DNA from: Streptomyces sp. SID13031
GTDB taxonomy: Bacteria > Actinomycetota > Actinomycetes > Propionibacteriales > Kribbellaceae
Reading direction: 5' to 3'
Assembly: GCF_010548305.1 (NCBI RefSeq)
Contig: NZ_JAAGLV010000010.1
Location: 124,001 to 188,000, forward strand
Length of the DNA: 64,000 bases
Shown here piece after piece: positions 1-16,365 of the stretch. Below the pieces are notes generated by a model that searched no databases, was not told the DNA's origin, and saw only the letters and a program-made list of their open reading frames with translations. The position numbers were made by a program, and so were the translations under genes. Position 1 is the stretch's first letter. Each line of letters opens with the position of its first letter.

Positions 1-411
1 GTCCGGCTGCACGTGCCGTGGAGTCGACTCATCACGGCGGAACTGCTCGACGACGCGGTTGCCCGGCAAGCGTTGCTGGTGCTGAAGCCGGCTGACGAGT
101 ACGGCGGTGCCGGCGTACTGGTCGGGCACGAGACCGATCCGGGCGCGTGGCGGGAAGGGCTCGAGGAGGCGATCCGCCGTGGCGGCTACCTGTTGCAGGA
201 CTACGTGCGGCCCGACCGGCTGACGATGGACTTCACCAATATCGACACCGGCGAGCACCTGCAGGTCGAGGTGCCGTACTCAGTCGGTCCGTACACGTTC
301 GGGCGGAAGTCGTTCGGCTGCTTCCTCCGGGTCGGGTCGCACGAGCACGGCGAGGTGCTCAACCTCAAGCGCGCGATCCACGTGACCGGCCCGCTCCTGG
401 TGACGACGTGA
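1..411 (+). CDS. C-terminal part of a glutathionylspermidine synthase-like ATP-grasp ligase (cut by window edge)
   Basis: The reading frame is open from the first base and ends in TGA at 409-411, so only about the last 136 residues are present. The fragment aligns by eye along its whole length with the C-terminus of the next gene: LVLKPADEYGGAGVLVG, then a QDY..PDRLTMDF segment, YTFGRKSFGCFLRVGS and EVLNLKRAIHVTG. Those are the ATP- and metal-binding parts of circularly permuted ATP-grasp enzymes (GSP_synth type), which join a carboxylate to an amine through an acyl-phosphate. The family call rests mainly on the complete copy downstream. The stop overlaps the next GTG start by 3 bases, so the two genes are probably co-translated. 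The substrate is unknown. Confidence 0.7.
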   Translation, partial: VRLHVPWSRLITAELLDDAVARQALLVLKPADEYGGAGVLVGHETDPGAWREGLEEAIRRGGYLLQDYVRPDRLTMDFTNIDTGEHLQVEVPYSVGPYTFGRKSFGCFLRVGSHEHGEVLNLKRAIHVTGPLLVTT

Positions 412-1772
412 GCGATTTCGACTGGGCCGGGCGCCCCGGATTTGATGCCTGGGGCAACTTGTCCGAGGAGGTGGAGGCGGCGGTACTGGCGGCTGGTACG
501 GCCGGCTGGCGGGTCGTCTTCGACGAGATCGCGACCTACAACGAGACGTGGCGGCCGGTGCGGCCGGTGCTGATGAGCAAGTCCTGGCTGGACGAGCTCT
601 ACGGGTTGAGCGATCGGATGCTGCAGCTGCTGCTGGAATGCTGCCGGCGCCGGGCCAGTACTGCGGGGGAGTTGCGCAAGTTGCTGGGGATCCCGGAAGG
701 GCGGGTCGAGTTCCTGGACGATGCCGAGCCGCTCGGTGATCATCTGGTGATGTCGGGGCGGCCTGACATCTTGCTGACCGACGGTGTGCCGAAGTTCGTC
801 GAGTTCAACGTCGGTAGCGATGTGGGCAGCGTCTGGGACTCCGAGAAGGTGTCGGCGCGGTTCCTGGAGCTCTTCCGTAACTCCGGGGTCTCCTCGTTGC
901 TGCCGGTCGAGGCGCCGGCCTCGGCCGTCGACGGGCGGTACTCCGCGATTCGTGAGTCGCTCGGGCTCGCGCCGGGTGCGCGGCTGACGATGGTGTTCCG
1001 GACCGATGGCGAGTATCCGGAGTCGCATGATCCGGAGAAGCTGGTCGAGCTGCTGCAGCCGTTCGTGGATCGTGGGCGCGAGAACGGCTTCGACATGGAT
1101 GTGCAGCCGGTCGACTGGCTGTCGCTGGACGCGAACGGCGAGCTGGTCGGGCGAGGACGACGGGTCGAGGCGATCCTGCGACTGTTCGTCTGCTCCGAGA
1201 TGCCGCCGACCGTTGGGTTGCAGGCGATCAAGGATGCGCTGCAGGCCGGTACGGCGACGTTGTTCACCTCGGCGGCTTCGTGGTTGATCAGCAACAAGGT
1301 GGTCTTCGCCTGGCTCTGGGAGGACGCCGACGAGCTTCCGGCTGCTGATGCTGAGCTCGTCCGGAACCACTTGCCGCGCACGCGGTTGCTCACGCCGTCG
1401 CTGGTCTCGTCTGTGGTTGCCGAGCGGGAGCAGTTGGTGCTCAAGCCGGCTGACGAGTTCGGTGGGTCCGGTGTGGTGGTCGGCCGGGAGGCGACTCCGG
1501 CGGAGTGGCTCCAGCTGGTCGAGAGTGGTGCTGCCGAGGGGCTGCATCTGGTGCAGGACTACTCGAAGCCGGACCGGATGGTGATGGACTTCGTGCATCT
1601 GTCCAGCGGCGCGCAGGAGCGGGCGGAGGTCCCGTTCTCGATCGGGCCGTACACCTTCGGGCGGCGCGGGTCCGGGTGTTACGTGCGGATCGGGAGCCAG
1701 GGTGAGGGGGAGGTCCTCAACCTCAAGCGCAACGTGCACGTCACCGGCTCGCTGCTGCTCGGCGAGACGTGA
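408..1772 (+). CDS. Circularly permuted ATP-grasp ligase (glutathionylspermidine synthase-like)
   Basis: A 454-residue protein starting at GTG 408 inside the stop of the preceding paralogue; the open frame extends further upstream but over that gene. Visible features are an acidic substrate/metal segment VEFNVGSDVGSVWDSEKV near residue 130, the nucleotide loop VLKPADEFGGSGVVVG near 345, VQDYSKPDRMVMDF near 385, and YTFGRRGSGCYVRIGS near 415. The family forms amide bonds using ATP without a carrier protein. Two copies in tandem suggest duplication followed by specialisation, perhaps two successive couplings in the neighbouring biosynthetic cluster (inference). The gene ends 2 bases before the stop of the convergent methyltransferase, leaving no room for a separate terminator. 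Family call is fairly sure; substrate unknown. Confidence 0.72.
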   Translation: MSDFDWAGRPGFDAWGNLSEEVEAAVLAAGTAGWRVVFDEIATYNETWRPVRPVLMSKSWLDELYGLSDRMLQLLLECCRRRASTAGELRKLLGIPEGRVEFLDDAEPLGDHLVMSGRPDILLTDGVPKFVEFNVGSDVGSVWDSEKVSARFLELFRNSGVSSLLPVEAPASAVDGRYSAIRESLGLAPGARLTMVFRTDGEYPESHDPEKLVELLQPFVDRGRENGFDMDVQPVDWLSLDANGELVGRGRRVEAILRLFVCSEMPPTVGLQAIKDALQAGTATLFTSAASWLISNKVVFAWLWEDADELPAADAELVRNHLPRTRLLTPSLVSSVVAEREQLVLKPADEFGGSGVVVGREATPAEWLQLVESGAAEGLHLVQDYSKPDRMVMDFVHLSSGAQERAEVPFSIGPYTFGRRGSGCYVRIGSQGEGEVLNLKRNVHVTGSLLLGET

Positions 1773-1774
1773 TG

Positions 1775-2734
1775 CTAGACGACGTACTCCAGCACGCGCG
1801 GGCCGGCCGTGGGTTGGTGGATGGCCTTGCGGGTCAAGCCTGCGGCCGCTGCGGCGTCGTCGTACTCGGCGAGGGTGCGCTCCCGGCCGTGCCCGAGCAC
1901 CAGCATCAACAGATCCATCGCGGCGAAGACGGCCGGCACTGCGTCGGATGCTTCCATGACGAGGATGGAGCCGCCGGCGGTGAGCGCCTTCCTGCACTTG
2001 CTGAGCGCGTCGACGGCTTGGTCGTCCTGGAAGGAGTGCAGGAGGTAGCGCAGCACGAACACGTCGGCCTGGGGCAGCTCCAGGTCGAAGAGATTGCCGG
2101 CCAGGACACCGCAGCTCACACCTGCTGCGTCGAACTCCCGCCGCGCGGTAGCGATGCTCGCCGGCAGCTCGACCAGAGTCCCGCGGAGCCCGGGGAAGGC
2201 CGTCAGCAAAGCGATGAGCTGAGCCCCGGTACCACCGCCGACGTCGACAACATGCCGGAACCGCCTCCAGTCGAGCACCCGCGCGAGAGCCGGCCCTTCG
2301 CTGCTGGCCCGCTCGCCCATCAACTCGTCATACGAAGCAGCCGCCCCCGGCGTAAGACTCAACTTGTTGCCCGCAGCAACAGGCCCACCGGCCCGCACGG
2401 TCCCGAGCAACTCGAAGAACGCCCGATCCATATGCCCCCCGAAGCCCTCCAGATCCAGCCACCGCCGAGCGGCCCCAGGAGCATCGTCCAGCAACCACCG
2501 CCCGGACTCCCCGAGCGCGAACTCTGTAGTGCCTGCCGCCTCGAAGAGGCCGCGGGCAACGAGGTAGCGCATCAGACGGTGGAGGGCTTCGGGGTTTGCG
2601 CCCGCCTTGGTCGCGAGGGCTTCTGCGGTGAGCGGGCCGTCGGCGAGCAGGTCGGCTATGCGCAGGGTAGCTGCCACCCGGATGGCCATCGGCATGATCA
2701 GGTCGCTCGCTGCTGCCAGCTCGGCGGGGGTCAT
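1775..2734 (-). CDS. SAM-dependent O-methyltransferase (plant-type/hydroxyneurosporene family)
   Basis: A 319-residue protein with the usual two-part layout: an N-terminal winged-helix dimerisation region (residues 1-100, with LMRYLVARGLFE) and a C-terminal Rossmann domain with the SAM motif VVDVGGGTGAQLIALL near residue 165. Then come the acidic residue of LVELPAS, and LRYLLHSFQDDQAVDALSK, where the His matches the general base position of small-molecule O-methyltransferases. The start ATG overlaps the stop of the upstream MFS gene (ATGA), so the two are translationally coupled. It is probably a tailoring enzyme of the cluster, methylating a hydroxyl or carboxyl of the product. The methyl acceptor cannot be read from the sequence. 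Confidence 0.8.
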   Translation of the reverse strand: MTPAELAAASDLIMPMAIRVAATLRIADLLADGPLTAEALATKAGANPEALHRLMRYLVARGLFEAAGTTEFALGESGRWLLDDAPGAARRWLDLEGFGGHMDRAFFELLGTVRAGGPVAAGNKLSLTPGAAASYDELMGERASSEGPALARVLDWRRFRHVVDVGGGTGAQLIALLTAFPGLRGTLVELPASIATARREFDAAGVSCGVLAGNLFDLELPQADVFVLRYLLHSFQDDQAVDALSKCRKALTAGGSILVMEASDAVPAVFAAMDLLMLVLGHGRERTLAEYDDAAAAAGLTRKAIHQPTAGPRVLEYVV

Positions 2735-3981
2735 CCCGGGTCTCCTGTGGGTTGCATGGTTTCTGTTGCCGGGGGTTCTGAGGTTTGCCGGCGGTATCTG
2801 ATCAGGGGGATCAGGGTGAGCGCGAGCAGCACCACACCGCCGACGAGGATGGTCGGCCTGAGCCCGACGCCGGCCGCGGCGACTCCGGCGAGGGCGCTCC
2901 CGATCGGGATGCCGGAGACCGCGACCGCGGCGACCACCCCGAAGACGCGGGTCTGCAGCTCGACCGGGATCCGCTCGTACAGCACCGCACCGACGATCGG
3001 GTTCACGCTGGCTATTCCGAACCCGGCGAAGAATGTCACGATCAGCACCACCACCAGGCTGTCGCTCAACCCCAGCACCAGGATTCTCGGCGCGCCGCCG
3101 ATTGCCGCCCCGATGAAGAAGGAAAGCATCTGCGGAAGCTTTGTCGAGAAGATGGTGAAAACCACGTTCCCGGCCAGCGAGCCACCCGCAAAAACCCCGA
3201 GAATGATCCCCAGCCGGGTCGGTGAACCGAATTCCTCCTGCACCCACAAAGGCAGTAGCACGGTACTCGCCGCCTGCTGGAAGAAATTGATCAGGAACAG
3301 CGTCGCGATCATCCCGAGCAGCAGCTTGTCGGTGCGCAGGAAAGTGAATCCGCCACGTAGCGCCTTCAGGTACGGCTCCTTGGCCGGCGTGACCTCCTCC
3401 GCCTCCGGCGCGGGCCGCACCAGCGCCCACACCAGCAGCGCCGAGACGGCGAACGTGCCGGCGTCCAGCCAGATCGTGTGCCGCGCCCCGAGGGTCGCCA
3501 CCAGGATGCCCGCGAGCGGCGCGCCGATCAGCCCCGCAGTGCGGTTCATCGCCTCATACGCGCTGGTCACACGGATCATCGGGATCCCGGACTCGGCCGT
3601 CACCGGCCGCAGCAGCACGTGTTTGACCCTGTCTCCGACGCCCCGCATCCCGCCGCTGACGGCGATCAGCAGGACCAGTTGCCAGAAGCCGAAGTCGGGC
3701 GTCGCGGCGACCACGCTCATCGCCACGGCGGAGCTGAGGTCGCAGACGATCGACGTCCGGCGCATCCCGAACCGGTCCGCGATCGGCGCTGCCAGAACAC
3801 TCGTCAGCAGGTACGGAATCATCTCCGCCGCGGCGACCAGTCCCATTTTCGCCGGACTGCCCGTGGTGATCAATACCAGCCATGGAATTGCGACCACCGA
3901 GAACCGGCTCCCGAACGCCGAGAAGACATCGGCGGTGAGCAATGCGTAAAGCCCGATTCGCCGTTGCTGAATCATATCCAC
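2731..3981 (-). CDS. MFS exporter (MefA/EntS-type, DHA3-like)
   Basis: A 416-residue protein with about 12 hydrophobic segments, beginning GTG at 3979-3981; an ATG two codons later is an alternative start. It contains WLVLITTGSPAKMGLVAA in the first helices and ADRFGMRRTSIV in the loop 2-3 position typical of major facilitator exporters. It closely resembles the protein encoded at 6260-7495: the segments TGSPAKMGLVAAAEM, GDRVKHV and GAAIGGAPR are nearly identical. Stop and start overlap with the methyltransferase (ATGA). It probably exports the cluster product or an intermediate, or gives self-resistance. Substrate is not predictable. Confidence 0.8.
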   Translation of the reverse strand: MDMIQQRRIGLYALLTADVFSAFGSRFSVVAIPWLVLITTGSPAKMGLVAAAEMIPYLLTSVLAAPIADRFGMRRTSIVCDLSSAVAMSVVAATPDFGFWQLVLLIAVSGGMRGVGDRVKHVLLRPVTAESGIPMIRVTSAYEAMNRTAGLIGAPLAGILVATLGARHTIWLDAGTFAVSALLVWALVRPAPEAEEVTPAKEPYLKALRGGFTFLRTDKLLLGMIATLFLINFFQQAASTVLLPLWVQEEFGSPTRLGIILGVFAGGSLAGNVVFTIFSTKLPQMLSFFIGAAIGGAPRILVLGLSDSLVVVLIVTFFAGFGIASVNPIVGAVLYERIPVELQTRVFGVVAAVAVSGIPIGSALAGVAAAGVGLRPTILVGGVVLLALTLIPLIRYRRQTSEPPATETMQPTGDPG

Positions 3982-4120
3982 CCCGATTCTTGTCGCGTCC
4001 TCCCCCGGCAGTCACAGTACGGCACGGATCCGGTCGGGGTAAGTGTTCCGCAGCAATGATTTACGCCGCGGAAAGAAAGCAGAGAATGCGTTTTCGGCAT
4101 GCCGGAAATTGGGGGAGAAA

Positions 4121-5380
4121 ATGACTGCGGACGAGATCTTCCGGGCGCTGGCGGCCGACGGGACCGACGACCCGTACCCGCTGTACGCCGAGCTGCACCG
4201 GCTCGGCGAGGTGCTGCCGGTGACGGCGCCCGAGCTGCCGTACGCCGCGGCCGTCTTCGGCTACCGGGCCGTCGACCGGATCCTGCGGGACACCTCGTTC
4301 GAGGTGCACGACGCGCTCCGGATGGAGCCGATGACGCCGGGCTGGCGCGACCACGCGGTGCTGGTGACGCTGATGAACTCGATGATGTTCAGCAACGGCG
4401 ACCGGCACGGCCGGATGCGCGGGCTGTTCCGCAAGGTGTTCACCCCGCGCCGGGTGCAGGAGATGGAGCCGGACGTCCTCCGGATCACCGCCGAGCTGCT
4501 GGACGGCGTCGCCGAGCTCGGGGCCGACGGCGGCGAGGTCGACTACATGGCCGAGTTCGCCTACCTGCTGCCGGCCCGGGTGGTCGGGCGACTGCTCGGG
4601 TTGCCGGACGAGGACATCAGCTGGTTCCGCACGCAGGTCGACCTGATCAACGACTGGCTCGACTTCCGCCGCAAGGGATCCGACGTGCTGGCCGCGGCGG
4701 ACCAGGCCGCGACCCGGATCACCGACTACTACCTGGAGCTGATCGCGAAGCGCCGGGCCGATCCGCAGCGGGACCTGATCAGCGATCTGACCCGGGCGAT
4801 CGGCGACGGCGAGCACGAGGTCACGGATCTCGAGCTCGTGGGCAACCTGCTGGTGCTGTTCAACGCCAGCTTCAGTACGACGATCCACCTGTTCGGCAAC
4901 GCGCTGCCGCTCCTGCTCGCGCGGCCGGAGATCCGGAGTACGCCGGAGCTCATGCCGGCGTACGTGGAGGAGGTCCTGCGCTACGACACTCCCGCGCACG
5001 TGTTCATCCGGGTGGCGGGTCGCGACACGGAGCTCCTCGGCGTACCGCTGAAGGAGGGGGAGCTGGTCGCAGTACTGACCGGGGCGGCCAACCGGGATCC
5101 GCGGCGGTTCGCGGAGCCGGACAGGTTCGATCCGGCGCGGGCCGACAACCAGCCGATCAGCTTCGGTGCCGGCGTCCACTACTGCCTGGGGGCTGCGCTC
5201 GCGCGGGCCGAGGCGCAGCTGGCGCTGCCGCTGGTGCTCGAGCGGTTCCCGCAGTTGGCGCTCGGCAGTGAGCCGGTCCGGACGGACCAGTTGATCCTGC
5301 GCGGCTACAAGTCCCTGCCGATCACGGTGACGGATCGGGCCCTGGTCACGGCCGGAGGTACTGCTGATGCCGCCGGGTGA
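4121..5380 (+). CDS. Cytochrome P450 with a non-canonical I-helix
   Basis: A 419-residue soluble bacterial P450. The ATG at 4121 is chosen because GGGGGAG lies 4 bases upstream; the open frame before it has no ribosome site. It has the K-helix ExxR (E284-R287), the meander ANRDPRRFAEPDRFDPAR and the heme loop FGAGVHYCLG with Cys355 as proximal ligand. The I-helix reads NASFSTT (residues 248-254), where most P450s have AG-x-(D/E)-T-T; the acidic residue is replaced by Ser252 while Thr253 is kept. It is a paralogue of the P450 at 10549. Likely an oxidative tailoring enzyme acting with cellular ferredoxin; no redox partner gene is nearby. Confidence 0.88.
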   Translation: MTADEIFRALAADGTDDPYPLYAELHRLGEVLPVTAPELPYAAAVFGYRAVDRILRDTSFEVHDALRMEPMTPGWRDHAVLVTLMNSMMFSNGDRHGRMRGLFRKVFTPRRVQEMEPDVLRITAELLDGVAELGADGGEVDYMAEFAYLLPARVVGRLLGLPDEDISWFRTQVDLINDWLDFRRKGSDVLAAADQAATRITDYYLELIAKRRADPQRDLISDLTRAIGDGEHEVTDLELVGNLLVLFNASFSTTIHLFGNALPLLLARPEIRSTPELMPAYVEEVLRYDTPAHVFIRVAGRDTELLGVPLKEGELVAVLTGAANRDPRRFAEPDRFDPARADNQPISFGAGVHYCLGAALARAEAQLALPLVLERFPQLALGSEPVRTDQLILRGYKSLPITVTDRALVTAGGTADAAG

Positions 5381-5418
5381 CGAGGTGACGCCATTTCGGC
5401 GGTGCTCGGAAATTGCGA

Positions 5419-5435
5419 TCAGGGGCTCGCCCTGA
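5419..5435. terminator. Small hairpin between convergent P450 and SGNH genes
   Basis: TCAGGG-GCTCG-CCCTGA forms a 6-bp stem with a 5-base loop, 39 bases after the P450 stop. There is no T-run. The rest of 5381-5606 is AT-richer than its surroundings (for example around 5558-5580) and shows no gene. Confidence 0.3.
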
Positions 5436-5606
5436 GGGCTGAAGCAGCCAGTTCCGAGTGCGCCCGAAGTCGAATTCAAGCTACACAATTAGTGATCGTC
5501 CGCGCACTGTATTGAGGAAACCCCTGAATGCGGTTCACCATGCCCAGATACGGCAATTAATCGGCTATTTATTGACCGGTTTCGAGCATGACAAAGGGAC
5601 CACGCG

Positions 5607-6263
5607 CTAGCGGGCGAGGTGGGCGCCCAAGCGGCGGATCGTCTCGGCTGCGGCGACCGCGTCGCTGCGGGCGGTGCCGTGGCGGCCGTCCGGGCTGTAG
5701 AGGGTCGGGTCGCTCGAGAGCGGGTGGTCCGTGAGGTGGACGTGGATCGTCCCCAGGCGGGTGGCGAGGGCCTGGGTGCGCTCGGCGAGCTCGGTCATCC
5801 GGGTGCGGAGGCCGGGGCGGAGCCAGTCGGGGACGGCGGGGGAGTAGGAGACGTTGAACATGCCGAGGGTGATCACGTCGGCACCCGTCGCCTGCAGCGC
5901 TGTCACCAGCTCGGTCAGCTCGCCGTCGACCCGGTCGGGGTCGTAGCGGGCGCTGAAGGCGTCGTTGCCGCCGCCTACGACGAGCGCCAGGTCGGGCTCG
6001 AAGGCCAGCGCGGGGGCTAGCTGGGTGGCGAGGATCTCGCGGGTCCGGAGGCCGCTGACGCCTAGGTTCAGGTAGTCGGGGACCTGGAGCTCAGCCGCCA
6101 GGCGGTCGGCCCACTGCAGCTCGGAGTACCCAGGTACAGGCGAGCACAGGCCCTCGGCCACGCTGTCGCCCAGTACTACGAAGCGCCGCCACGGGTGCCC
6201 GGTCAGCAGCTTCGCCGACTCGCCCTCAGCCAGGCAGTACTCGTCAGTGGCCTCGGTGATCAT
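5607..6263 (-). CDS. Cytoplasmic SGNH/GDSL-family esterase
   Basis: A 218-residue protein starting at ATG 6261-6263, overlapping the MFS stop (ATGA). Block I is VVLGDSVAEGL with the nucleophile Ser, block III GGGNDAF supplies the Asn, and the C-terminal SPDGRHG carries the D-x-x-H pair. No signal peptide is visible, so it should act inside the cell, typically removing an acyl group from a sugar, amino acid or small molecule. It is the last gene of a three-gene minus-strand operon (ligase, MFS, esterase). A second, secreted SGNH protein opens the plus-strand operon at 9249. The substrate is unknown. Confidence 0.8.
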   Translation of the reverse strand: MITEATDEYCLAEGESAKLLTGHPWRRFVVLGDSVAEGLCSPVPGYSELQWADRLAAELQVPDYLNLGVSGLRTREILATQLAPALAFEPDLALVVGGGNDAFSARYDPDRVDGELTELVTALQATGADVITLGMFNVSYSPAVPDWLRPGLRTRMTELAERTQALATRLGTIHVHLTDHPLSSDPTLYSPDGRHGTARSDAVAAAETIRRLGAHLAR

Positions 6264-7495
6264 GCAGCCTCCTTGGCGCTGTAGTGGGGGAGCTCGACCG
6301 GGTCCCGCCACCAGCGATAGACCGGTACCAGCGTGACGAGCAGCAGGACCACCCCGGAGCCGATCAGAGCCGGCCGCAGCCCGAACGCCGCCGCACTCCA
6401 GCCCGCCAGGACGCCGCCGATCGGGACCCCCATGAACGAGATCGCGCCGGCCACCCCGAACACGCGCGTCTGCAGCGCGGCCGGCACCCGCTCGTACAGG
6501 GTCGCGCCTATCACCGGGTTGACCGCCGCGTTCGCGATCCCGCAGCAGAAGCTGACCGTGATCACCGGCCAGAGCCGATCCGACAGCCCGAGCGTGAACA
6601 GCCGGGGAGCGCCGCCGATCGCCGCACCGATGACGAAGGACGAGTACTGCGGCAGGCGCGGCCCGAGCACGGTGAAGATCACGTTCCCGAGCAGTGCTCC
6701 CGCGGCGAACCCGCCGAACAGCAGCCCGAGCGCGGCCGGCGAGACGAGCACCTGCTCGACCCAGAGCGGTACGAACACGCCGGTACCGGCCTGGTTGAAG
6801 ACGTTCAGGAAGAAGGTCATCACGATCATCCCGAGCAGCAAGTGATCCTTGCGCAGGTAGGCGAACCCGCCCCGCAACGCCTGGAAGTACGGCTCCCTCA
6901 GCGCCGCCGGAGCATCCGTGACCGCAGGCGCCGGGAGCCGGACGAAGAAGGCGATCAGCGAGGCGCAGACGACGAACGAGAGCGCGTCCACGGCGATCGC
7001 CTGGTTCGGCCCGATCCAGGCGATCAGCAGCCCGCCGAGCGGGGCGCCGACCAGCGTCGCGGTCCGGCTGAAGCCCTCGTACGACGAGGTCACGCGGATC
7101 ATCTTGACTCCGGCCGCGTCCGCCATCGGCTTGAGCATCACGTGCTTGACGCGGTCACCGCAGCCGCGCAACGCCCCCGCGACGGCGACCAGCAGGCACA
7201 GCCAGGCGAACGACAAGCCGGGCGTCAGGACGATCGCGGCCATCGCGGCGGCGCTGCCGAGATCCGTCACGATCGAGGTCCGGCGCAGCCCGAACCGGTC
7301 GGCCAGCGGCGCCGCGAGCACCCCCGATACGACGTACGGGAGCATCTCGGCCGCCGCGACCAGACCCATCTTCGCCGGGCTGCCGGTGCTGATCAGGACG
7401 AGCCAGGGGATCGCGATCATCGACACCCGGTCGCCGAGCGCGGACAGGATGTCCGCGCCGAACAGGGCGATCAGCCCTGCCTTACGCCTGTTCAT
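6260..7495 (-). CDS. MFS exporter, paralogue of the transporter at 2731-3981
   Basis: A 411-residue, 12-helix major facilitator protein. The start is ATG 7493-7495, overlapping the ligase stop by ATGA; the open frame reaches further back but into the ligase gene. Landmarks are WLVLISTGSPAKMGLVAA, ADRFGLRRTSIV, GCGDRVKHVMLKP and GAAIGGAPRLFTLGLSDRL. Similarity to the first MFS protein runs from end to end, indicating duplication inside the cluster. It likely exports the product or a precursor, and its coupling to the ligase and esterase ties it to biosynthesis. Substrate is not readable from sequence. Confidence 0.82.
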   Translation of the reverse strand: MNRRKAGLIALFGADILSALGDRVSMIAIPWLVLISTGSPAKMGLVAAAEMLPYVVSGVLAAPLADRFGLRRTSIVTDLGSAAAMAAIVLTPGLSFAWLCLLVAVAGALRGCGDRVKHVMLKPMADAAGVKMIRVTSSYEGFSRTATLVGAPLGGLLIAWIGPNQAIAVDALSFVVCASLIAFFVRLPAPAVTDAPAALREPYFQALRGGFAYLRKDHLLLGMIVMTFFLNVFNQAGTGVFVPLWVEQVLVSPAALGLLFGGFAAGALLGNVIFTVLGPRLPQYSSFVIGAAIGGAPRLFTLGLSDRLWPVITVSFCCGIANAAVNPVIGATLYERVPAALQTRVFGVAGAISFMGVPIGGVLAGWSAAAFGLRPALIGSGVVLLLVTLVPVYRWWRDPVELPHYSAKEAA

Positions 7496-9054: not shown

Positions 9055-9151
9055 GGCGCCCCACCCCTTCGGTATCCGGGGCGACTGTACTTCCAGAAAT
9101 TCCCGGCGGCCAGTCGTCGGGTGAATTCAAGCGGACAATTCAAAACACCCG

Positions 9152-9180: not shown

Positions 9181-9248
9181 TTCGACACCGTCACTCGCGC
9201 AGGGGTATTTCTTGCCCGCCGCGCGTCAACCCATTGGGGGGTTGTTCC

Positions 9249-10544
9249 ATGCGCATTCCCAGTACCGTCAGATCGGCCGCACTAGCGGCCGTCGTCTCCC
9301 TGGCCGGCTCGGCCCTGGTCTTCACCGGCTCGTCGGCCCAGACGGCCGACAAGTCCGGCGGCCGGGACGAGTGGGTGGGCAGTTGGTCCACCGGCATCGT
9401 CAAGCCGGAGTCGGCCGGGTTCACGGCCACCGGCCTCAACAACCAGAGCGCTCGCTACGTGGTCCGGCCGTCCGTGGGGGGCGACAAGATCCGGATCCGG
9501 TTCACCAACATCTACGGCGACCGGCCGGTGCAGATCGGTGCGGCCACCGTGGCGAAGGGTGACACCAGTACGCCGGTGCAGTCCGACATCGACGTCGCGT
9601 CCAAGCGCTCGCTGACCTTCAACGGCGGCTCGCCGACCGCGGTGATGAACAAGGGCGCCGAGCTGCTCAGCGACCCGATCAACCTCGAGGTGCCGGACCT
9701 GAGCACGCTGGTGATCAGCGTCTTCTATCCGACCGCGACCGGCCCGACCAGCTGGCACGCGTCGTCCAACCAGCAGAACTTCTTCGGTCCGGGTGACCTG
9801 ACAGGAGCTGCGGACGGTACGCCGTACATCACTACGCGTGCGTGCTGCTGGACGTTCCTGTCCGGTGTCGACGTGGTGACCGACAAGCCCTCGGGCTCGA
9901 TCGTCGTGCTCGGCGACTCGATCGCCGACGGCCTGCTCAGCACGGCGAACGCCAACAACCGCTGGCCCGACCAGCTCGCCGAGCGGCTGGTCGCCGAGCG
10001 CGGGAAGAAGGCACCCGGCGTCCTGAACGTCGGCGAAGCCGGCAACCGGCTGCTGCAGGACAGCAGCGGTCTCATCCTCGGTGGCCCGAGTGGCACCGAG
10101 CAGCTCGGGCTGAACGCGCTGGCCCGGCTGAACGAGGACGTCTACGCGCAGACCGACGTACGCACCGTGATCACGCACCTCGGGGTGAACGACATCTGGA
10201 TGAACGGCGCCGGCGCCGACGAGATCATCGCCGCGCTGAAGCAGATCAACAGCCAGCTGCTGGAGAAGAACATCGGCAGCATCGGCGCCACCATCACGCC
10301 GTACGCCGGCTTCACCACGCCGGGCGGCTGGACGCCGGAGAAGGAAGCGACCCGGGTCGCAGTGAACACGTGGCTGCGCACGCAGGACGAGTTCGACGGC
10401 ATCATCGACTTCGACAAGGCCGTCCGGGACCCTGCCTCGCCGGACAAGCTGCTGGCGGCGTACGACGGTGGCGACCACATCCACATGAGCGACGCCGGCT
10501 ACCAGGCGATGGCCAACTCGATCCCGTTGAAGCTGGTCCGGTGA
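9249..10544 (+). CDS. Secreted SGNH/GDSL-family esterase
   Basis: A 431-residue exported protein with an N-terminal signal peptide (basic start MRIPSTVR, hydrophobic stretch to about residue 25, Ala-rich cleavage region). An N-terminal domain of about 190 residues is followed by the hydrolase domain: IVVLGDSIADGL (Ser nucleophile), HLGVNDIW (Asn) and GDHIHMSDAGY (Asp/His). The family removes acyl groups from glycans or small molecules. It opens the plus-strand operon, 4 bases before the P450 start, so extracellular processing of the cluster product is possible (inference). It could instead be a polysaccharide esterase swept into the operon. Confidence 0.82.
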   Translation: MRIPSTVRSAALAAVVSLAGSALVFTGSSAQTADKSGGRDEWVGSWSTGIVKPESAGFTATGLNNQSARYVVRPSVGGDKIRIRFTNIYGDRPVQIGAATVAKGDTSTPVQSDIDVASKRSLTFNGGSPTAVMNKGAELLSDPINLEVPDLSTLVISVFYPTATGPTSWHASSNQQNFFGPGDLTGAADGTPYITTRACCWTFLSGVDVVTDKPSGSIVVLGDSIADGLLSTANANNRWPDQLAERLVAERGKKAPGVLNVGEAGNRLLQDSSGLILGGPSGTEQLGLNALARLNEDVYAQTDVRTVITHLGVNDIWMNGAGADEIIAALKQINSQLLEKNIGSIGATITPYAGFTTPGGWTPEKEATRVAVNTWLRTQDEFDGIIDFDKAVRDPASPDKLLAAYDGGDHIHMSDAGYQAMANSIPLKLVR

Positions 10545-10548
10545 GTTG

Positions 10549-11766
10549 ATGACCACCGCCGCCGATCAAGTGCTCAAGGGACTCTTCAGCGAAGCCGGTC
10601 TGGACGATCCGTACCGGTACTACGCCGAACTCCACAAGCTGGGCCCCGTCAGTCTTCTCGAAGGCGGAGCCGGATATGCGGCGGTGGTCACCGGTTACGA
10701 GGCAGCCGATCAGCTGCTGCGGGACCCGCGGTTCCTCGTTGCCGACGACGTGTTCAGCGACGAGCTCAGCGGTCCCGAGTGGCGGGAGCACCCGCTGCTG
10801 ACGGTGCTCAACAACTCGATGATGTACAGCAACGGTCCCCGGCACACGCAGGCCAGACGCCTGTTCCAGCAGGTGTTCACGCCCCGCCGGGTGGCCGAGC
10901 TGGAACCGGCGGTCGGCCGGCTGGTCGACGGTCTGATGGACCAGCTGGCCGAGCGGCTGGCTGTCGACGGGGAGGCGGACTTCATGTCGGAGTTCGCCTA
11001 TCCGTTGCCGAGCAGCGTGGTCGCCGCGCTGCTCGGCATCCCGCAGGCCGACCTGACGTGGTTCCGGCCCCGGGTCGAACGGATCAACGATTTTCTCGAT
11101 GTGGTCGGCAAGACCGACGAGGTGCTGGCGGCCGCCGACCAGGCGACGCGTGAGCTGTCCGAGTACTACCGAACGCTGATCGCCGAGCGCCGCAAGGCGC
11201 CGAGCGACGACCTGATCAGCCAGCTGGTCGAGGCGGTCGACGCGGGCCTGCACGAGGTGTCGGACGACGACCTGATCTGCAATCTGCTGGTGCTCTTCAA
11301 CGCCAGCTTCGTGACGACGATCCACCTGATCGGCAACGGGATGTGGATGCTCCTCGACCAGCCCGAGCTACGGACGGCCGCCGCGACGCCCGCCTTCGTC
11401 GAGGAGGTACTGCGGTACGAGGCGCCGGTGCAGTTCGTTGCGCGCTGGTCCGAGGTCGAGGCCTCCTTGGCGGGCACGGTCATTCCGCCCAAGGAGATCG
11501 TGCTGGTGGTGCTCGGCGCGGCCAATCGGGACTCGGAGCGCTACCCCGACCCCGACGCCTTCGACGCCCGCCGGGTCGACGTCAAGCCGCTGAGCTTCGG
11601 GGCCGGGCCGCACTACTGTCTCGGTGCGGCGCTGGCCCGGGCGGAGGCGCGGATCGCCTTTCCCCGGTTGCTGGAGCGGTTCCCCTCGTTGCGGTCCGCC
11701 CGCCCGCCGGTGCGGAACCCGCAGCAGTTCCTGCGCGGGTACAAGTCGATGCCGGTGGCAACATGA
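10549..11766 (+). CDS. Cytochrome P450, paralogue of the enzyme at 4121
   Basis: A 405-residue P450 beginning at ATG 10549 with GGTGAG just upstream; a TTG immediately before it is less likely. It has EEVLR as the K-helix ExxR, ANRDSERYPDPDAFDARR as the meander and FGAGPHYCLG with heme-ligand Cys357. The I-helix is NASFVTT (251-257): the conserved acid is Val255, with Thr256 kept. Both P450s in the cluster share the NASF start of this helix and the flanking LLVLFNAS/TTIHL context, so they derive from one duplication. Probably a tailoring oxidase; the altered acid position may change oxygen activation or reflect oxidation of a substrate that supplies its own proton relay. Confidence 0.88.
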   Translation: MTTAADQVLKGLFSEAGLDDPYRYYAELHKLGPVSLLEGGAGYAAVVTGYEAADQLLRDPRFLVADDVFSDELSGPEWREHPLLTVLNNSMMYSNGPRHTQARRLFQQVFTPRRVAELEPAVGRLVDGLMDQLAERLAVDGEADFMSEFAYPLPSSVVAALLGIPQADLTWFRPRVERINDFLDVVGKTDEVLAAADQATRELSEYYRTLIAERRKAPSDDLISQLVEAVDAGLHEVSDDDLICNLLVLFNASFVTTIHLIGNGMWMLLDQPELRTAAATPAFVEEVLRYEAPVQFVARWSEVEASLAGTVIPPKEIVLVVLGAANRDSERYPDPDAFDARRVDVKPLSFGAGPHYCLGAALARAEARIAFPRLLERFPSLRSARPPVRNPQQFLRGYKSMPVAT

Positions 11767-11808
11767 CCGCCGGTGAGATCCCCGCCCGTTGATGTGAGAG
11801 GTCTTTCC

Positions 11809-12738
11809 ATGCCATTGGATCCGCAGGTCGAGGAGTTGCGCGCGAAGCGCGAAGCGGACAACGTGCCGCAGCTCTACACCCAGACGCTGGCCGAGGCTCG
11901 CGCCGCCGATCTCGCCTCCATCCAGGCGGGCGGCGGCGACGTCGACCCCGTCCATCACGTCCGGGATCTGGTGATGGAGGAGTCCGGTCTGGTGCTGCGG
12001 ATCTATCGCCCGGCGGGAGACGGGCCGCTGCCGACCCTGGTCTACTTCTTCGGCGGCGGCTGGACGCTCGGCAGCATCGAGACGGGTGACGGAGTCTGCC
12101 GGCGGCTGGCCAACCTCGTACCGTGCCAGGTGATCGCCGTCGGGTATCGACTGGCGCCCGAGAACCCCTTCCCCGCCGCGGTGCACGACTGCCATCGCGC
12201 CACCCAGTGGATCGCCGCTCACGCGGTGGAGCTCGGGGTCGATGTTGCTCGCCTGGCAGTCGGCGGAGACAGTGCCGGAGGCAACCTTGCGGCCGCAACA
12301 ACCTTGCTGGCGAGGGAATCCGGGCCTTCTCTGGCAGCACAGCTACTGATCTACCCGAACACCTTGTACGGCTCGGACACCGCCTCGATGCGAGCCGGCG
12401 ACGACCCGTTCCTCTTCAATCGAACGTCAGTGAACTGGTACTGGAAGCACTACCTCCCCAACGACGCTGACGGCACCAACCCGCTGGCGTCTCCACTCCT
12501 GGCGGCATCTCACGCCGGCCTGCCGCCTGCCCTCGTCATCACCGCCGAGTTCGACCCCCTGCGCGATGAGGGTGAGTACTACGCCGAGAAGCTGTACGCC
12601 GCCGGTGTCCCCACCGAACTGACCAGATACGACGGCATGGTCCATGGTTTCTACACCATGTCCGGCGTCCTGGACGCCGCCCGCAAGGCTCTCACCGACT
12701 CAGCCGCCTGGCTCCGCCAAACTTTCGCCGATGCCTGA
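11809..12738 (+). CDS. Alpha/beta hydrolase of the hormone-sensitive lipase (HSL) family
   Basis: A 309-residue cytoplasmic esterase; ATG 11809 is preceded by GAGAGG at good spacing. It has the nucleophile elbow GGDSAGG, a C-terminal Asp in TAEFDPLRDEG and His in YDGMVHGFY. The oxyanion motif, normally HGGG(W/F), reads FGGGW here (YFFGGGWTLG), so its first His is Phe. Family members hydrolyse short-chain esters or amides. It overlaps hmo by 8 bases and lies between a P450 and the Hmo/HpgT pair, which points to a role in the cluster, perhaps releasing or trimming an intermediate. Confidence 0.82.
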   Translation: MPLDPQVEELRAKREADNVPQLYTQTLAEARAADLASIQAGGGDVDPVHHVRDLVMEESGLVLRIYRPAGDGPLPTLVYFFGGGWTLGSIETGDGVCRRLANLVPCQVIAVGYRLAPENPFPAAVHDCHRATQWIAAHAVELGVDVARLAVGGDSAGGNLAAATTLLARESGPSLAAQLLIYPNTLYGSDTASMRAGDDPFLFNRTSVNWYWKHYLPNDADGTNPLASPLLAASHAGLPPALVITAEFDPLRDEGEYYAEKLYAAGVPTELTRYDGMVHGFYTMSGVLDAARKALTDSAAWLRQTFADA

Positions 12739-13816
12739 CCCGCAGGTCCCATCGCCCGCGGCCGTAAGCGTGGCCGATTTCGAGGGGCTGGCAGCCCGGG
12801 TTCTGCCTGCTGCCACTCGCGAGTTTGTTGCTGGGGGAAGTGGCAGCGAGACGACTCTTCGGCTCAACCGAGCCGCTCTCGACTCGGTGACCCTCGTGCC
12901 GCGGGTGCTTGCGGGGGTTGAGGCTGCCGACCCGGCTTGCCGGTTGGTTGGGGCGGCGGCGGGGATGCCTGTGGTGGTTGCGCCGATGGCTTATCAGCGG
13001 CTGGTACATCCTGACGGAGAGTTGGCGCTGGCGCGGGCTGCTGCCGCGGCGGGGGTTCCGTATGTGATCAGCACGTTGAGCAGCTATCCGTTGGAGGAGA
13101 TCGCGAAGGTAGCGCCTTCGTGGTTCCAGTTGTACTGGTTGCGGGACCGGGCGATGATCGAGTCGCTCGTCGACCGGGCCGAGGAGTCCGGCTGCGGCGC
13201 GTTGATGGTGACGGTGGATGTTCCCGTCATGGGTCGCCGATTGCGCGACGTGCGGAACGCCTTCGCGCTGCCGCCCGACGTGGGTGCGGCCAACCTCGTC
13301 GGCGCTCGCACCGAGGCGCATACCGGCGTGCCGGGGTTGTCGGCCGTCGCCGCCCACACCGCCTCTGCCTTCGAGCCCGCTGTCTCCTGGCGCGATCTCG
13401 AGTGGTTGAAGTCGAGGACCGATCTTCCCCTGCTGGTGAAGGGAGTTCTCGACCCGCGCGATGCCGTCAAGGCCGTCCAGATCGGTGCCGATGGCATCGT
13501 CGTGTCCAACCATGGCGGTCGGCAACTGGACGGAGCCGTTGCGTCGATCAACGCCTTGCCCCCGATCGTGGATGCCGTGGGCAAGGAATGTTCAGTACTA
13601 CTCGACAGCGGGATCCGGAGTGGTACCGACGTCCTGCGGGCGCTCGCGCTCGGCGCATCCGCAGTACTGGTCGGCCGGCCGTTGCTCTGGGCCCTTGCTG
13701 TCGATGCCTGTGGCAACGCATTCGACCTGCTGCGCAGAGAACTGGCCGACGCGATGCTGCTGGCCGGCTGCGCGAACGTCGCCGCCGTCGCGCGGCTCAC
13801 CACCGGGAGGGCCTGA
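12731..13816 (+). CDS. hmo: FMN-dependent alpha-hydroxy acid oxidase, probable 4-hydroxymandelate oxidase
   Basis: A 361-residue TIM-barrel flavoenzyme; ATG 12731 lies inside the end of the hydrolase gene. The FMN-binding and catalytic motif SNHGGRQLDG carries His261 and Arg264; other family segments are VVVAPMAYQRL, WFQLYWLRDR, MVTVDVPVMGRRLRD and LGASAVLVGRPLLWAL. The MAYQRL and VPVMGRRLRDVRNAF segments match, from memory, Hmo of glycopeptide clusters better than lactate or glycolate oxidases. Hmo oxidises 4-hydroxymandelate to 4-hydroxybenzoylformate, the substrate of HpgT, which is the next gene (stop and start share one base). A plain mandelate oxidase is the main alternative. Confidence 0.82.
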   Translation: MPDPQVPSPAAVSVADFEGLAARVLPAATREFVAGGSGSETTLRLNRAALDSVTLVPRVLAGVEAADPACRLVGAAAGMPVVVAPMAYQRLVHPDGELALARAAAAAGVPYVISTLSSYPLEEIAKVAPSWFQLYWLRDRAMIESLVDRAEESGCGALMVTVDVPVMGRRLRDVRNAFALPPDVGAANLVGARTEAHTGVPGLSAVAAHTASAFEPAVSWRDLEWLKSRTDLPLLVKGVLDPRDAVKAVQIGADGIVVSNHGGRQLDGAVASINALPPIVDAVGKECSVLLDSGIRSGTDVLRALALGASAVLVGRPLLWALAVDACGNAFDLLRRELADAMLLAGCANVAAVARLTTGRA

Positions 13817-15099
13817 TGGCCGATCTGGACGTCACCGACCTGCACGGTTCGCTCACCGACCGCGCGCTGAACTCGATGAACTTCCTCAACGAGATCGCCG
13901 GCCACTACCCCGACGCGATCTCGCTCGCGGCCGGCCGGCCGTACGAGGAGTTCTACGCGCTCGAGGATCTGCACTCCTACCTCGACACGTTCAGCCAGTA
14001 TCTGCGCGACGAGCTCGGCTACGACGAGGCGGGCGTCCGGCGGGCGATCTTCCAGTACGGCCGGACCAAGGGCATCATCCACCCGCTGGTCGCCCGCAAC
14101 CTCGCCGCCGACGAGGGGATCACGGTCGACCCCGACGCGATCGTCGTGACGGTCGGCTGCCAGGAAGCGATGGTCCTGGTACTCCGCGCGCTCCGCGCGA
14201 GCCCGGCCGACGTCTTGCTCGCGATCTCCCCGGCCTACGTCGGAATCACCGGCGCCGCCCGACTCGTCGACCTCCCGGTACTGCCTGTTGCCGGGGGCAA
14301 CTGTGGGGTCGACCTCGACGATCTCGTTGCCGTCGTCAAGCGTGCCCGAGCCGACGGTCTCCGTCCCCGGGGTTGCTACGTGATGCCTGACTTCGCCAAC
14401 CCCTCTGGCCTCAGCCTCGACCTGGAGACGAGGCAACGGTTGCTGGAGATCGCAATGCAGGAAGACCTGTTGCTGCTCGAAGACAACCCCTATGGGCTCT
14501 TCCCCGCCGCTGGCGTCGACCGCGTACCGACCCTGAAGGCCTTGGACACCGACCGCCGAGTGATCTACCTCGGCTCCTTCGCCAAGACAGCGCTACCGGG
14601 CGCCCGAGTCGGCTACTTGGTGGCCGACCAGACCGTCGCCGCCCCGGACGGGACGGTCGGCCTGCTCGCTGACGAACTCTCCAAGATCAAGAGCATGCTG
14701 ACGGTCAACACCTCCGCCGTCGCCCAGGCGGTGATCGGCGGCAAACTCCTCCAGAACGACTGCAGCCTGGTCACCGCCACCCAGCGCGAACGCACCATCT
14801 ACGCCGCCAACCTCCGCGCCATCACCGACGGCCTGGCCGCCCGCTTCCCCACCGGCGAAGTCACCTGGACCGTTCCCTCCGGCGGCTTCTTCATCGTCGT
14901 AACGGTGCCGTTCCCGGTCACCGACGCGCTGCTGCAGAAGTCCGCCCGCGACTACGGCGTCCTCTGGACCCCGATGAGCCACTTCTATGACGGCGACGCC
15001 CCGACCAACTCCCTCCGCCTCTCCTGCAGTTCCGTCACAGCCCTCCAGATCGACACCGCCCTCGACCGCCTCGCAGCCCTGATCAACGACCACCTCTAG
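13816..15099 (+). CDS. hpgT: PLP-dependent aminotransferase, probable 4-hydroxyphenylglycine transaminase
   Basis: A 427-residue fold-type I aminotransferase (MocR/KAT-like class I/II). The N-terminal LNSMNFLNEIAGHYPDAISL, IFQYGRTKG and the core VTVGCQEAMVLVLRAL are, as I recall them, characteristic of HpgT. Lys257 in SFAKTALPGARVGYL is the PLP Schiff-base lysine, preceded by LLLEDNPYG. HpgT moves an amino group, usually from tyrosine, to 4-hydroxybenzoylformate to give 4-hydroxyphenylglycine. It is coupled directly to hmo (TGATG junction). The usual first enzyme, hydroxymandelate synthase (HmaS), is not in this window. Specificity for phenylglycine or 3,5-dihydroxyphenylglycine is possible. 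Confidence 0.82.
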   Translation: MADLDVTDLHGSLTDRALNSMNFLNEIAGHYPDAISLAAGRPYEEFYALEDLHSYLDTFSQYLRDELGYDEAGVRRAIFQYGRTKGIIHPLVARNLAADEGITVDPDAIVVTVGCQEAMVLVLRALRASPADVLLAISPAYVGITGAARLVDLPVLPVAGGNCGVDLDDLVAVVKRARADGLRPRGCYVMPDFANPSGLSLDLETRQRLLEIAMQEDLLLLEDNPYGLFPAAGVDRVPTLKALDTDRRVIYLGSFAKTALPGARVGYLVADQTVAAPDGTVGLLADELSKIKSMLTVNTSAVAQAVIGGKLLQNDCSLVTATQRERTIYAANLRAITDGLAARFPTGEVTWTVPSGGFFIVVTVPFPVTDALLQKSARDYGVLWTPMSHFYDGDAPTNSLRLSCSSVTALQIDTALDRLAALINDHL

Positions 15100-15158
15100 A
15101 AACTGGTCCTCTTGCCGCTGCATGAACTGGATCTGTAGAGCAGACCGGTCAGTTTCTA
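15097..15158. promoter_or_regulatory. 9-bp inverted repeat between hpgT and the third MFS gene
   Basis: TAGAAACTG (15097-15105, including the hpgT stop) is repeated in reverse complement as CAGTTTCTA (15150-15158), just before the MFS ATG. A GACCGGTC palindrome adjoins the right arm at 15143-15150. It may be an operator or a transcript hairpin that separates the exporter from the operon. Confidence 0.3.
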
Positions 15159-15168
15159 CGGTGGTCGC

Positions 15169-16365
15169 ATGACCGACATCGCCTGCGAGCTCCCGACCAC
15201 GCCGAACGACCTCGCTGTCGAGCGGCTGGTGACGCCGGCGTTCGGGCGGTTGCTGGTGATGGTGTTCGGGTCGGGGCTGAGCATGTACTTGCTGACCTCG
15301 GTGGTGCCGCTCTATCTGGCGGCAAGCGGATCCGGTGGGATCGGCGCGGGACTGTCCACCGGCGCGATGATGCTGTCTGCCGTCGCGGTGGAGCTGCTCG
15401 TCCCGCGGATGCTCAGGCGATTCGGGTACTTCGGGACGCTCGGGCTGGGCCTCGTTCTGCTGGGAGCGCCGTCGGTCGCGCTGGTGTTCACCTCGGCACT
15501 CCCGCTCGTGCTCGCGGTGTGTGTCGTCCGCGGCGCCGGGCTGGCGATCATGGTCGTCGGCGCGGTGGCGCTGGTCGCCGAGATCACGCCGGCTCACCGT
15601 CGCGGCGAGGGGTTGGGGATCTACGGCGTCGTGGTCGGTCTGCCCGCCGCGATCGGGCTTCCGCTGGGCGTCTACCTCACCACCGTGGTCGGGTACGACG
15701 CGCTCTTCGTCCTCGCCGCGATCGCCTCGCTGGCGGGTCTCGCGATGCTGCCGGGCTTGCCACGTCGTAGTACCGGCCTGGAAGAGCAACACGTGAAGGT
15801 GCTGGGCGGCCTGCGGGGGAGCGGCCTGCTGATGCCGACCTTCGTCTTCGCAGCCGTGACTGTTGCCGCCGGCATCAGTGTGACCTTCCTGCCGCTGGGA
15901 TCGGCCAACCACCTCGTGGTCACTATGGCGCTGCTGATCCAAGCGACCACGGCGCCGCTCGCCCGGTGGCTGGCCGGACGGGTCGGGGACCGCGTCGGAC
16001 CGGCGAAGTTGCTCGCGCCCGCCGTCTTGCTGGCTGCGCTCGGAGCCGGCTCGCTCGTCTTCATCGGCAGCCCGGTAGCCGTCATCCTCGGCGCCGCACT
16101 TTTCGGCCTAGGCTTCGGCGCCGCGCAGAATCTGACGCTGGCGATCATGTACGACCGCTCGCCCGAGTTGCGCTATGGCCAGGTCAGCGCGCTCTGGAAT
16201 CTCGCCTACGACGGCGGCTGGGGTATCGGCGCGATCACTTTCGGTTTCGTCGTCGCCGGCACCGGCTACCCGATCGCGTTCGCACTCACCGCCGGAATCG
16301 TGCTGGCCGCTGTGATCCCTGCTACCGGGGTGGTTGAAGCGGTGGTTGAACAGTTCGATCGTTGA
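15169..16365 (+). CDS. MFS transporter, not closely related to the other two
   Basis: A 398-residue protein with 12 predicted hydrophobic segments and the short N-terminal cytoplasmic tail of drug-efflux MFS proteins. AEITPAHRRGEGLGIYG after helix 4 resembles the loop seen in many multidrug exporters, and ARWLAGRVGDRVGPAKLL follows the central loop. It lacks the TGSPAKMG sequence shared by the two cluster paralogues. It starts 69 bases after hpgT with GGTGG as a weak ribosome site. It is either the last gene of the cluster or an independent efflux pump; substrate unknown. Confidence 0.78.
   Translation: MTDIACELPTTPNDLAVERLVTPAFGRLLVMVFGSGLSMYLLTSVVPLYLAASGSGGIGAGLSTGAMMLSAVAVELLVPRMLRRFGYFGTLGLGLVLLGAPSVALVFTSALPLVLAVCVVRGAGLAIMVVGAVALVAEITPAHRRGEGLGIYGVVVGLPAAIGLPLGVYLTTVVGYDALFVLAAIASLAGLAMLPGLPRRSTGLEEQHVKVLGGLRGSGLLMPTFVFAAVTVAAGISVTFLPLGSANHLVVTMALLIQATTAPLARWLAGRVGDRVGPAKLLAPAVLLAALGAGSLVFIGSPVAVILGAALFGLGFGAAQNLTLAIMYDRSPELRYGQVSALWNLAYDGGWGIGAITFGFVVAGTGYPIAFALTAGIVLAAVIPATGVVEAVVEQFDR

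Follow-up and report, generated by a model that had tools for sequence, protein, structure and literature searches.

A 64,000-nucleotide stretch of the genome of Streptomyces sp. SID13031 (the window; contig NZ_JAAGLV010000010.1, here C9, positions 124,001 to 188,000) cuts into a predicted hybrid biosynthetic cluster of ~30 kb, which in window coordinates extends from about -14004 to 16365. The cluster very probably supplies hydroxyphenylglycine (Hpg) through the enzymes HmaS, Hmo and HpgT, and it also encodes three tandem ATP-grasp ligases (AG1, AG2 and AG3) together with acyl carrier proteins (ACPs) and ketosynthases (KSs). The Hpg users known so far are mostly nonribosomal peptide synthetase (NRPS) pathways. 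Here we propose, with about even confidence, that these genes encode an NRPS-free hybrid pathway, in which a carrier-bound short acyl chain and Hpg would be joined by one to three ligases of the glutathionylspermidine synthetase (GspS) fold.

Co-inheritance of the cluster

The AG2 ligase was searched for in 293 genomes of the order and found in 25, its own genome counted, all of which belong to its own genus, which we take to be Kribbella. Among 37 other Kribbella genomes, the same 24 carry the ligase, a close HpgT orthologue (73–94%) and KSG, a predicted half ketosynthase encoded left of the window, and the other 13 carry none of the three. In 22 of the 24, the ligase shares a contig with HpgT and, by the listed places, is within about 17 kb of it; in G020 and G066 the two are on separate contigs. 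Ten of the 24 cluster-bearing genomes were mapped, nine were represented by loci of 3–4 kb (L019–L027) and five by search rows only. By tblastn, all ten mapped genomes contain the acyl ligase AL1, a phosphopantetheinyl transferase (PPTase), ACP1, ACP2, the ketosynthase KSF, KSG, a second ligase (AL2) and a FabF-like KS, as well as HmaS, a PhyH oxygenase, a DUF3050 protein, E1 alpha, E1 beta, the AMP-forming ligase AL3, Hmo and HpgT; in G002, the best tblastn piece covers 69% of AL1 and 71% of HmaS. The O-methyltransferase (OMT) is missing in one genome, exporter c of the major facilitator superfamily (MFS) in one (G034) and both cytochromes P450 in one (G006). The mapped block sits between murQ/GNAT and coaA, except that the contig ends first in G096 (left) and G105 (right).

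Three ligase copies are present in six of the mapped genomes and two in four; these counts leave aside weak ligase matches in G046 and G049, which reach 77–84 bits. Across the Kribbella clusters, the tandem copies number from one to three. The HpgT orthologues likewise do not include a 44% paralogue in G051 or the additional 44% copy of G006, and the G114 match covers residues 2–284 only.

The gene order is largely retained elsewhere as well. Among the matches listed, loci of Kribbella sandramycini, Micromonospora and Salinispora have in common the order ACP1–ACP2–KSF–KSG–AL2–FabF–HmaS–PhyH–DUF3050–E1 alpha–E1 beta–ligase, with insertions and gaps, and continue with genes for an SGNH hydrolase, an MFS exporter and AL3, followed by Hmo and HpgT where the locus extends that far. 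The ligase is single copy in the Micromonospora and Salinispora clusters. It is also single copy in the 23 of 200 genomes of the G474 family that carry it, a family we take as Micromonosporaceae because one member ligase is 98% identical to that of Salinispora mooreana. In the K. sandramycini locus (L031), the segment between SGNH and HpgT, which makes up the right half of the cluster, has the opposite orientation with respect to the left half. We regard it as almost certain that all the parts form one co-inherited cluster.

Hydroxyphenylglycine supply

The best Protein Data Bank (PDB) match of HmaS is 2r5v, at 316.7 bits, with other chains reaching at most 268.2; we take 2r5v to be PCZA361.1, an HmaS. 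The protein reads GNIKALYEA, as against GNFKALFEA in the genome's own separate 4-hydroxyphenylpyruvate dioxygenase, to which it is 38% identical. The best single-copy PDB match of Hmo is 5zzp, a 4-hydroxymandelate oxidase (359.7 bits), with hydroxyacid oxidase 1 as the next single-copy family at 277.7 bits. Comparable totals come from tandem lactate-oxidase chains (7f22, 376.8 bits; 7f20, 352.4) because each consists of two copies, with ~187 bits per domain in 7f22; lactate oxidases of the 7f22/2j6x kind reach about 187–191 bits each. HpgT falls into a sharply delimited clade: across 394 genomes of the class (E up to 1e-40), its 17 non-own members score 372–657 bits, and all other listed matches score at most 158.5. 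Eleven of the 17 loci have HmaS- and/or Hmo-like genes and seven have a DpgA-like type III polyketide synthase (PKS), one having both; since each locus has one kind or the other, all 17 look like arylglycine loci.

With hmaS 6–7 kb left of the window, in addition to Hmo and HpgT, the whole Hpg pathway is present. An earlier interpretation made from the letters of the window (the sequence-only reading) had held that the adjacent Hmo and HpgT genes imply an arylglycine and had pointed to the DNA left of position 1 as the place to look for hmaS; both assignments hold, and hmaS lies there (Table 1). It had also named, as the outcome that would overturn it, a grouping of the two proteins with lactate oxidases or ordinary aminotransferases. 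No such grouping was seen, and the bit-score gaps exclude an ordinary oxidase and aminotransferase. We also rejected a MocR-type assignment of HpgT, as the NCBIfam matches to it lie far below cut-offs and reflect the common aminotransferase domain.

Two loci of family f22 (L118:8401-13937 and L119:8398-13856) contain a compact run of HmaS, Hmo, PhyH, HpgT and an EamA exporter, with no NRPS motif seen across 20 kb. By its gene content, this run may be all that is needed to make and export a small arylglycine.

Architecture of the ATP-grasp ligases

An AlphaFold model of AG2, built from 24 sequences, has a mean pLDDT of 91.4. Its top Foldseek match is human glutathione synthetase (E 4.3e-18), and re-examination of Foldseek's own matches with VIA-align, a ranking that covers only the families in that list, placed YgiC first (Z 26.0, r.m.s.d. 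3.8, 367 aligned), followed by E. coli GspS (25.5) and homoglutathione synthetase (23.8). Cp1B, the E-64 ligase, aligned with Z 22.4 and 13% identity over the aligned part. The residues R116, D118, E130, N132, K301, K350, Q387 and R431 are invariant in all 24 aligned ligases, our three included; R116, D118, E130 and N132 may correspond to GspS 316, 318, 330 and 332, the magnesium site. The predicted structure thus has the glutathione/glutathionylspermidine-synthetase fold. The sequence-only reading had described two GSP-synthase-like ATP-grasp ligases: the fold is upheld by the model, and the number is three.

Relatives of the ligase in Streptomyces adjoin other amino-acid genes. The stretch L055:2147-11269 encodes a member of this ligase family together with PALP, OCD, AurF and DapF and with carbamoyltransferase-like and haem-oxygenase-like proteins, a set that suggests a diaminopropionate-type pseudopeptide pathway.

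The carrier-protein arm

Leftward from AG1, Pfam scans of 30 proteins (28 of the cluster and two flanking), together with NCBIfam, identify E1 beta, E1 alpha, the DUF3050 protein (with Haem_oxygenas_2 as a second, weaker match), the PhyH oxygenase and HmaS. Beyond HmaS, the order is the FabF-like KS, AL2, KSG, KSF, ACP2, ACP1, the PPTase on the opposite strand and AL1, so that the two ACPs, the PPTase, the KS/half-KS pair and the FabF-like KS lie 7–13 kb left of the window. ACP1 has a PP-binding match in Pfam. ACP2 has weak NCBIfam ACP matches, no Pfam ACP match and a conserved SMELAWLVH motif; its Pfam match to Exotox-A_bind (E 1.8e-4, 21.4 bits against a cut-off of 20.5) is taken as spurious.

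The family alignments, from which sequences beyond length and coverage limits were excluded, comprise between 11 (AL1) and 42 (HmaS) sequences. In that of KSF (n = 32), and also in comparison with FabF, the active-site Cys and the second His are kept and Asn replaces the first His. The KSG model (pLDDT 85.6) is that of a half ketosynthase, for which the best Foldseek fits are a ketosynthase chain of 203 residues and ApeC, a chain-length factor, and, read by eye, KSG has no Cys at the active-site place. AL2 matches the model of the AvaA6 3-aminoavenalumate diazotase over near full length at 480.6 bits, with the next model at 147.2.

The sequence-only reading had proposed a carrier-free route. 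This proposal falls with the ACPs, PPTase and ketosynthases of the cluster; KSG is found in every one of the 24 genomes that carry the ligase and HpgT. Its statement that there is no NRPS domain or carrier protein stands for the proteins scanned from positions 1–16365, where neither was found, and fails further left, where the carrier proteins are encoded.

Homologues of AL1, ACP, KSF and KSG also occur in other settings. At L148, they stand with PabAB, PabC, AurF, KR and MaoC (Pfam); at L147 and L150, a PabAB-like gene was identified from N-terminal sequence, and at L147 the AL1, ACP, KSF and KSG homologues were found by BLAST. Judged by these genes, L147 and L148 are probably nitro- or aminoaryl chain-extension clusters.

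A relative with condensation proteins

A search for Condensation domains found none on the 328-kb contig C9, and no NRPS modules were found in the DNA just left of the window, where the sequence-only reading, which had seen no NRPS, had said that modules with Hpg-selective adenylation domains would overturn it. In our judgement, the cluster is likely, with good confidence, to work without an NRPS partner.

One distant relative, G521, has AL1, both ACPs, KSF, KSG, AL2, FabF, HmaS and PhyH at 46–68% identity, and E1 alpha, E1 beta, Hmo, HpgT and the alpha/beta hydrolase within the same range. A genome-wide search of G521 (E up to 1e-10) found no ligase of the AG family, and tblastn at 1e-10 in three stretches found no DUF3050 protein. 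Near its E1 genes (L164:5307-18708) are three stand-alone Condensation proteins, two above cut-off and one below. Also encoded there are two PP-binding proteins, a PPTase, a glycosyltransferase and one protein each resembling class II tRNA synthetases and KAS III. This gene set reads as a different amide-type joining machinery on the same core, placed where the ligase would be, and the apparent swap supports a bond-forming role for the ligase.

Proposed pathway and alternatives

In the proposed pathway, HmaS, Hmo and HpgT very probably convert 4-hydroxyphenylpyruvate through 4-hydroxymandelate and 4-hydroxybenzoylformate to Hpg. AL1 may act as an acyl-ACP ligase that puts a starter acid, possibly aromatic, on one of the two ACPs, and, on the pattern of the cispentacin and ava/cma systems, the KSF–KSG pair would condense this starter and malonyl-ACP. 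The acyl unit might then be modified by the FabF-like KS, the diazotase-like AL2, PhyH, the DUF3050 protein and E1 alpha/beta. One to three ligases would activate a free carboxylate as an acyl phosphate and form amide bonds, in which the partner of Hpg may be the acyl unit or a further amino acid, and the P450s, OMT, esterases and MFS pumps would serve tailoring and export. We slightly favour Hpg, or an intermediate that contains it, as the substrate of the ligase.

Several observations weigh against this pathway. Pfam and NCBIfam gave only sub-threshold CP_ATPgrasp matches on the ligases, all Pfam cut-offs were missed, and the GSP_synth model, a search with which the sequence-only reading had suggested, did not match; with a fold match and no curated-model match, they are therefore treated as relatives by fold and not filed as GSP synthetase. 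Ligase relatives occur at loci without a detected HpgT (L053–L056 and L059–L061; annotated for L053 and L055), and Hpg therefore need not be the ligase substrate. In NCBIfam, the FabF model gives KSF 181 bits, more than the 130.1 bits of AmcF. The pathway accounts neither for the membership of AL2 in a diazotase-like family nor for E1 alpha/beta, which has no E2 or lipoyl partner among the cluster genes. A PabAB-like gene is present at three of the eight other mapped KSG loci (L147, L148 and L150) and the remaining five show none, so that the aromatic starter is only a guess. Elsewhere in the genome there are 22 Condensation matches, which leave room for a trans-acting NRPS, and in G521 the core exists without an AG-family ligase and with NRPS-type condensation proteins instead.

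Alternatively, Hpg, or an acid of its pathway (4-hydroxymandelate or 4-hydroxybenzoylformate), might itself be the ACP-bound starter for KSF–KSG, with the ligase adding another amine or acid; malonyl extension and cyclisation would then give, for example, a 5-aryl tetramate or a cyclopentenone. AmcF–AmcG are reported both to extend and to cyclise (PMC10698177), homologues of AL1, ACP, KSF and KSG accompany aminobenzoate genes in L148 and L147, and G521, in which no ATP-grasp ligase was found, retains the PKS arm, the Hpg genes and E1. Nevertheless, AL1 is most like acyl-CoA and o-succinylbenzoate (OSB) ligases, and a keto acid as the starter would make HpgT needless; we consider this alternative rather unlikely. 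That AL2 is a working nitrite-dependent diazotase, with a product made through N–N chemistry, is improbable. Its score with the AvaA6 model far exceeds that with the next model, and 72 of 134 ava-like clusters lack genes of the aspartate–nitrosuccinate (ANS) pathway (PMC10777205), but the score lies far under the curated cut-off of 975 and no arylamine source was seen. Furthermore, the 30 scanned proteins lack the families that we would expect for 3-amino-4-hydroxybenzoate (3,4-AHBA) synthesis or CreE/CreD, although ANS genes were not searched genome-wide.

Hpg might feed an NRPS encoded elsewhere in the genome, as could be argued from the 22 distant Condensation matches, from the general preponderance of NRPS pathways among Hpg users and from the stand-alone Condensation proteins that adjoin the same core in G521. 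However, contig C9 has no Condensation domain, and across Kribbella, Micromonospora and Salinispora the Hpg genes keep their place next to those of the ligase and the PKS, with which, in Kribbella, they are gained or lost together. Such a distant partner is very improbable. The left part of the cluster is mostly one run on the + strand and the right part has mixed strands, as might be expected of two unrelated clusters adjacent by chance. Against this stand the co-occurrence (24 of 24 genomes versus 0 of 13), the location of HmaS in the left part and of Hmo and HpgT in the right, and the order kept across families; the probability of chance neighbours is negligible, and we ruled them out on the co-occurrence of the ligase, HpgT and KSG.

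Relation to known systems

The Hpg supply resembles that of glycopeptides and the calcium-dependent antibiotic (CDA), in that HmaS and Hmo best match solved enzymes and HpgT lies in the clade of Hpg and dihydroxyphenylglycine (Dpg) loci. In contrast to those NRPS clusters, there is no condensation domain on the contig, and PhyH and ATP-grasp ligases are present. A precedent for the ligation is pheganomycin, for which ATP-grasp ligation of an arylglycine has been described (PMC8939145). Like PGM1 of that pathway, the ligases stand with an arylglycine; unlike there, the arylglycine here comes from the Hpg route rather than from a type III PKS making Dpg, with no type III PKS match among the scanned proteins and no amidinotransferase among the 28 cluster genes. 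The ligases here have the predicted GspS/YgiC fold. One locus, L124:5462-15792, contains Dpg-type type III PKS and ECH-type genes, HpgT, a P450, a ligase 27% identical to AG2 and amidinotransferase-like genes, the last named from N-terminal sequence with no Pfam match; by its gene content it is a pheganomycin-like set.

The carrier-protein arm is similar to the KS–CYF layout of AmcF–AmcG in the cispentacin system (PMC10698177). Both have an ACP (AmcB there), a KS with Cys and a short half-KS, and among NCBIfam models KSG matches AmcG best. The scores stay below the curated cut-offs, however (AmcF 130.1 against 325 bits, AmcG 44 against 80 bits), no gene was recognised as AmcC, AmcD or AmcE, and there is an extra FabF-like KS. 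With the ava/cma highly reducing type II PKS systems, the cluster shares the order acyl-ACP ligase, ACP, ACP, KS, partner and diazotase-like ligase (PMC10777205); it differs in that no ketoreductase, 3,4-AHBA or ANS genes were found among the scanned proteins.

In the E-64 pathway, the ATP-grasp enzyme Cp1B, which acts alongside the amide synthetase Cp1D, couples an acid with an amino acid independently of any NRPS (PMC12568646). It likewise represents a ligase of GspS-like fold in an NRPS-independent amide route, but is fungal and uses other substrates. Ketomemicins are NRPS-independent pseudopeptides made by ATP-grasp enzymes in the same genera (PMC11943689).

Among the open-licence PMC papers listed by our searches, we recognised no description of this cluster or of a combination of HmaS/Hmo/HpgT, ligase and KS/half-KS, and a term search in PMC10868606, on Micromonosporaceae clusters, gave no match. 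Given that arylglycine ATP-grasp ligation is known from pheganomycin, the cluster is not a new class. The sequence-only reading had called a carrier-free ligase route to an arylglycine amide unusual: the pairing of ligases with the Hpg pathway and without an NRPS is retained, whereas carriers are present and pheganomycin is a precedent.

Extent and gene content of the cluster

Window position 1 is base 124001 of C9 (328,523 bases), in a genome of 8.52 Mb on 134 contigs, and the leftward DNA was read from the same contig. The cluster continues left of the window, as the sequence-only reading had stated, with genes reaching about -14004, and beyond AL1 lie a GNAT gene and a murQ-like gene. To the right of 16365 are a gene for a secreted protein and then genes that, on inspection by eye, look like coaA, acpS and nnr, and the right edge was therefore placed at 16365. 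The secreted protein (positions 16448-17410; 320 residues) has no Pfam match, and G009 and G105 have two copies. The genes of Table 1 were called by a simple codon-usage script, so the start codons are approximate; the caller missed or fused some genes, among them KSG and Hmo in G096, L046 and L147 and, in several genomes, that of the PPTase, which in the ten mapped genomes was mended by tblastn. The inventory drawn up in the sequence-only reading (an OMT, two P450s, an AMP-forming ligase, esterases and exporters) agrees with Pfam.

Table 1 Features of the cluster in window coordinates
Feature	Position	Strand	Remarks
Acyl ligase AL1	about -14004 to -12547		Closest to acyl-CoA/OSB ligases
HmaS	-7038 to -5965		2r5v match
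ATP-grasp ligase AG1	-2308 to -962		Third tandem copy
ATP-grasp ligase AG2, 3' end	1 to 411 (whole gene -962 to 411)	+	AlphaFold model, predicted GSP-synthetase fold
ATP-grasp ligase AG3	471 to 1772	+	41% identical to AG1; invariant columns shared
OMT	1775 to 2734	-	Pfam Methyltransf_2; 9/10 mapped relatives
MFS exporter a	2731 to 3846	-	Pfam MFS_1
Cytochrome P450 a	4121 to 5380	+	Pfam p450; not found in G006
SGNH/GDSL hydrolase	5607 to 6263	-	Pfam Lipase_GDSL_2; 10/10 mapped relatives
MFS exporter b	6260 to 7495	-	Pfam MFS_1; also in Micromonospora/Salinispora clusters extending that far
AMP-forming ligase AL3	7492 to 9054	-	Pfam AMP-binding; 10/10 mapped relatives
GDSL hydrolase	9249 to 10544	+	Pfam Lipase_GDSL_2; signal-peptide-like N terminus by eye
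Cytochrome P450 b	10549 to 11766	+	Pfam p450; not found in G006
Alpha/beta hydrolase (esterase)	11809 to 12738	+	Pfam Abhydrolase_3
Hmo, 4-hydroxymandelate oxidase	12644 to 13816	+	Pfam FMN_dh; 5zzp match; 10/10 mapped relatives; start codon uncertain, homology starts near 12758
HpgT, arylglycine aminotransferase	13816 to 15099	+	Clade split 372 vs 158.5 bits
MFS exporter c	15169 to 16365	+	Pfam MFS_1; missing in G034; right cluster edge

Implications

The conserved pairing of Hpg with stand-alone ligases and a KS/half-KS pair in Salinispora and Micromonospora, which have been heavily mined for drugs, points to an uncharacterised compound family. More tentatively, the cluster may represent a distinct and widespread logic, in which a KS/half-KS aryl acyl unit and Hpg are stitched together by ligases whose copy number sets the length of a pseudopeptide, although we regard this as doubtful. 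If it were true, G521 would show one amide-forming machinery naturally exchanged for another on a common core, and the diazotase-like ligase and the DUF3050 protein would bring in reactions that have so far not been seen with an arylglycine. The family offers natural experiments, with ligase copy numbers of one to three and one relative in which condensation proteins appear in place of the ligase, and the small ligases may serve for making arylglycine amides.

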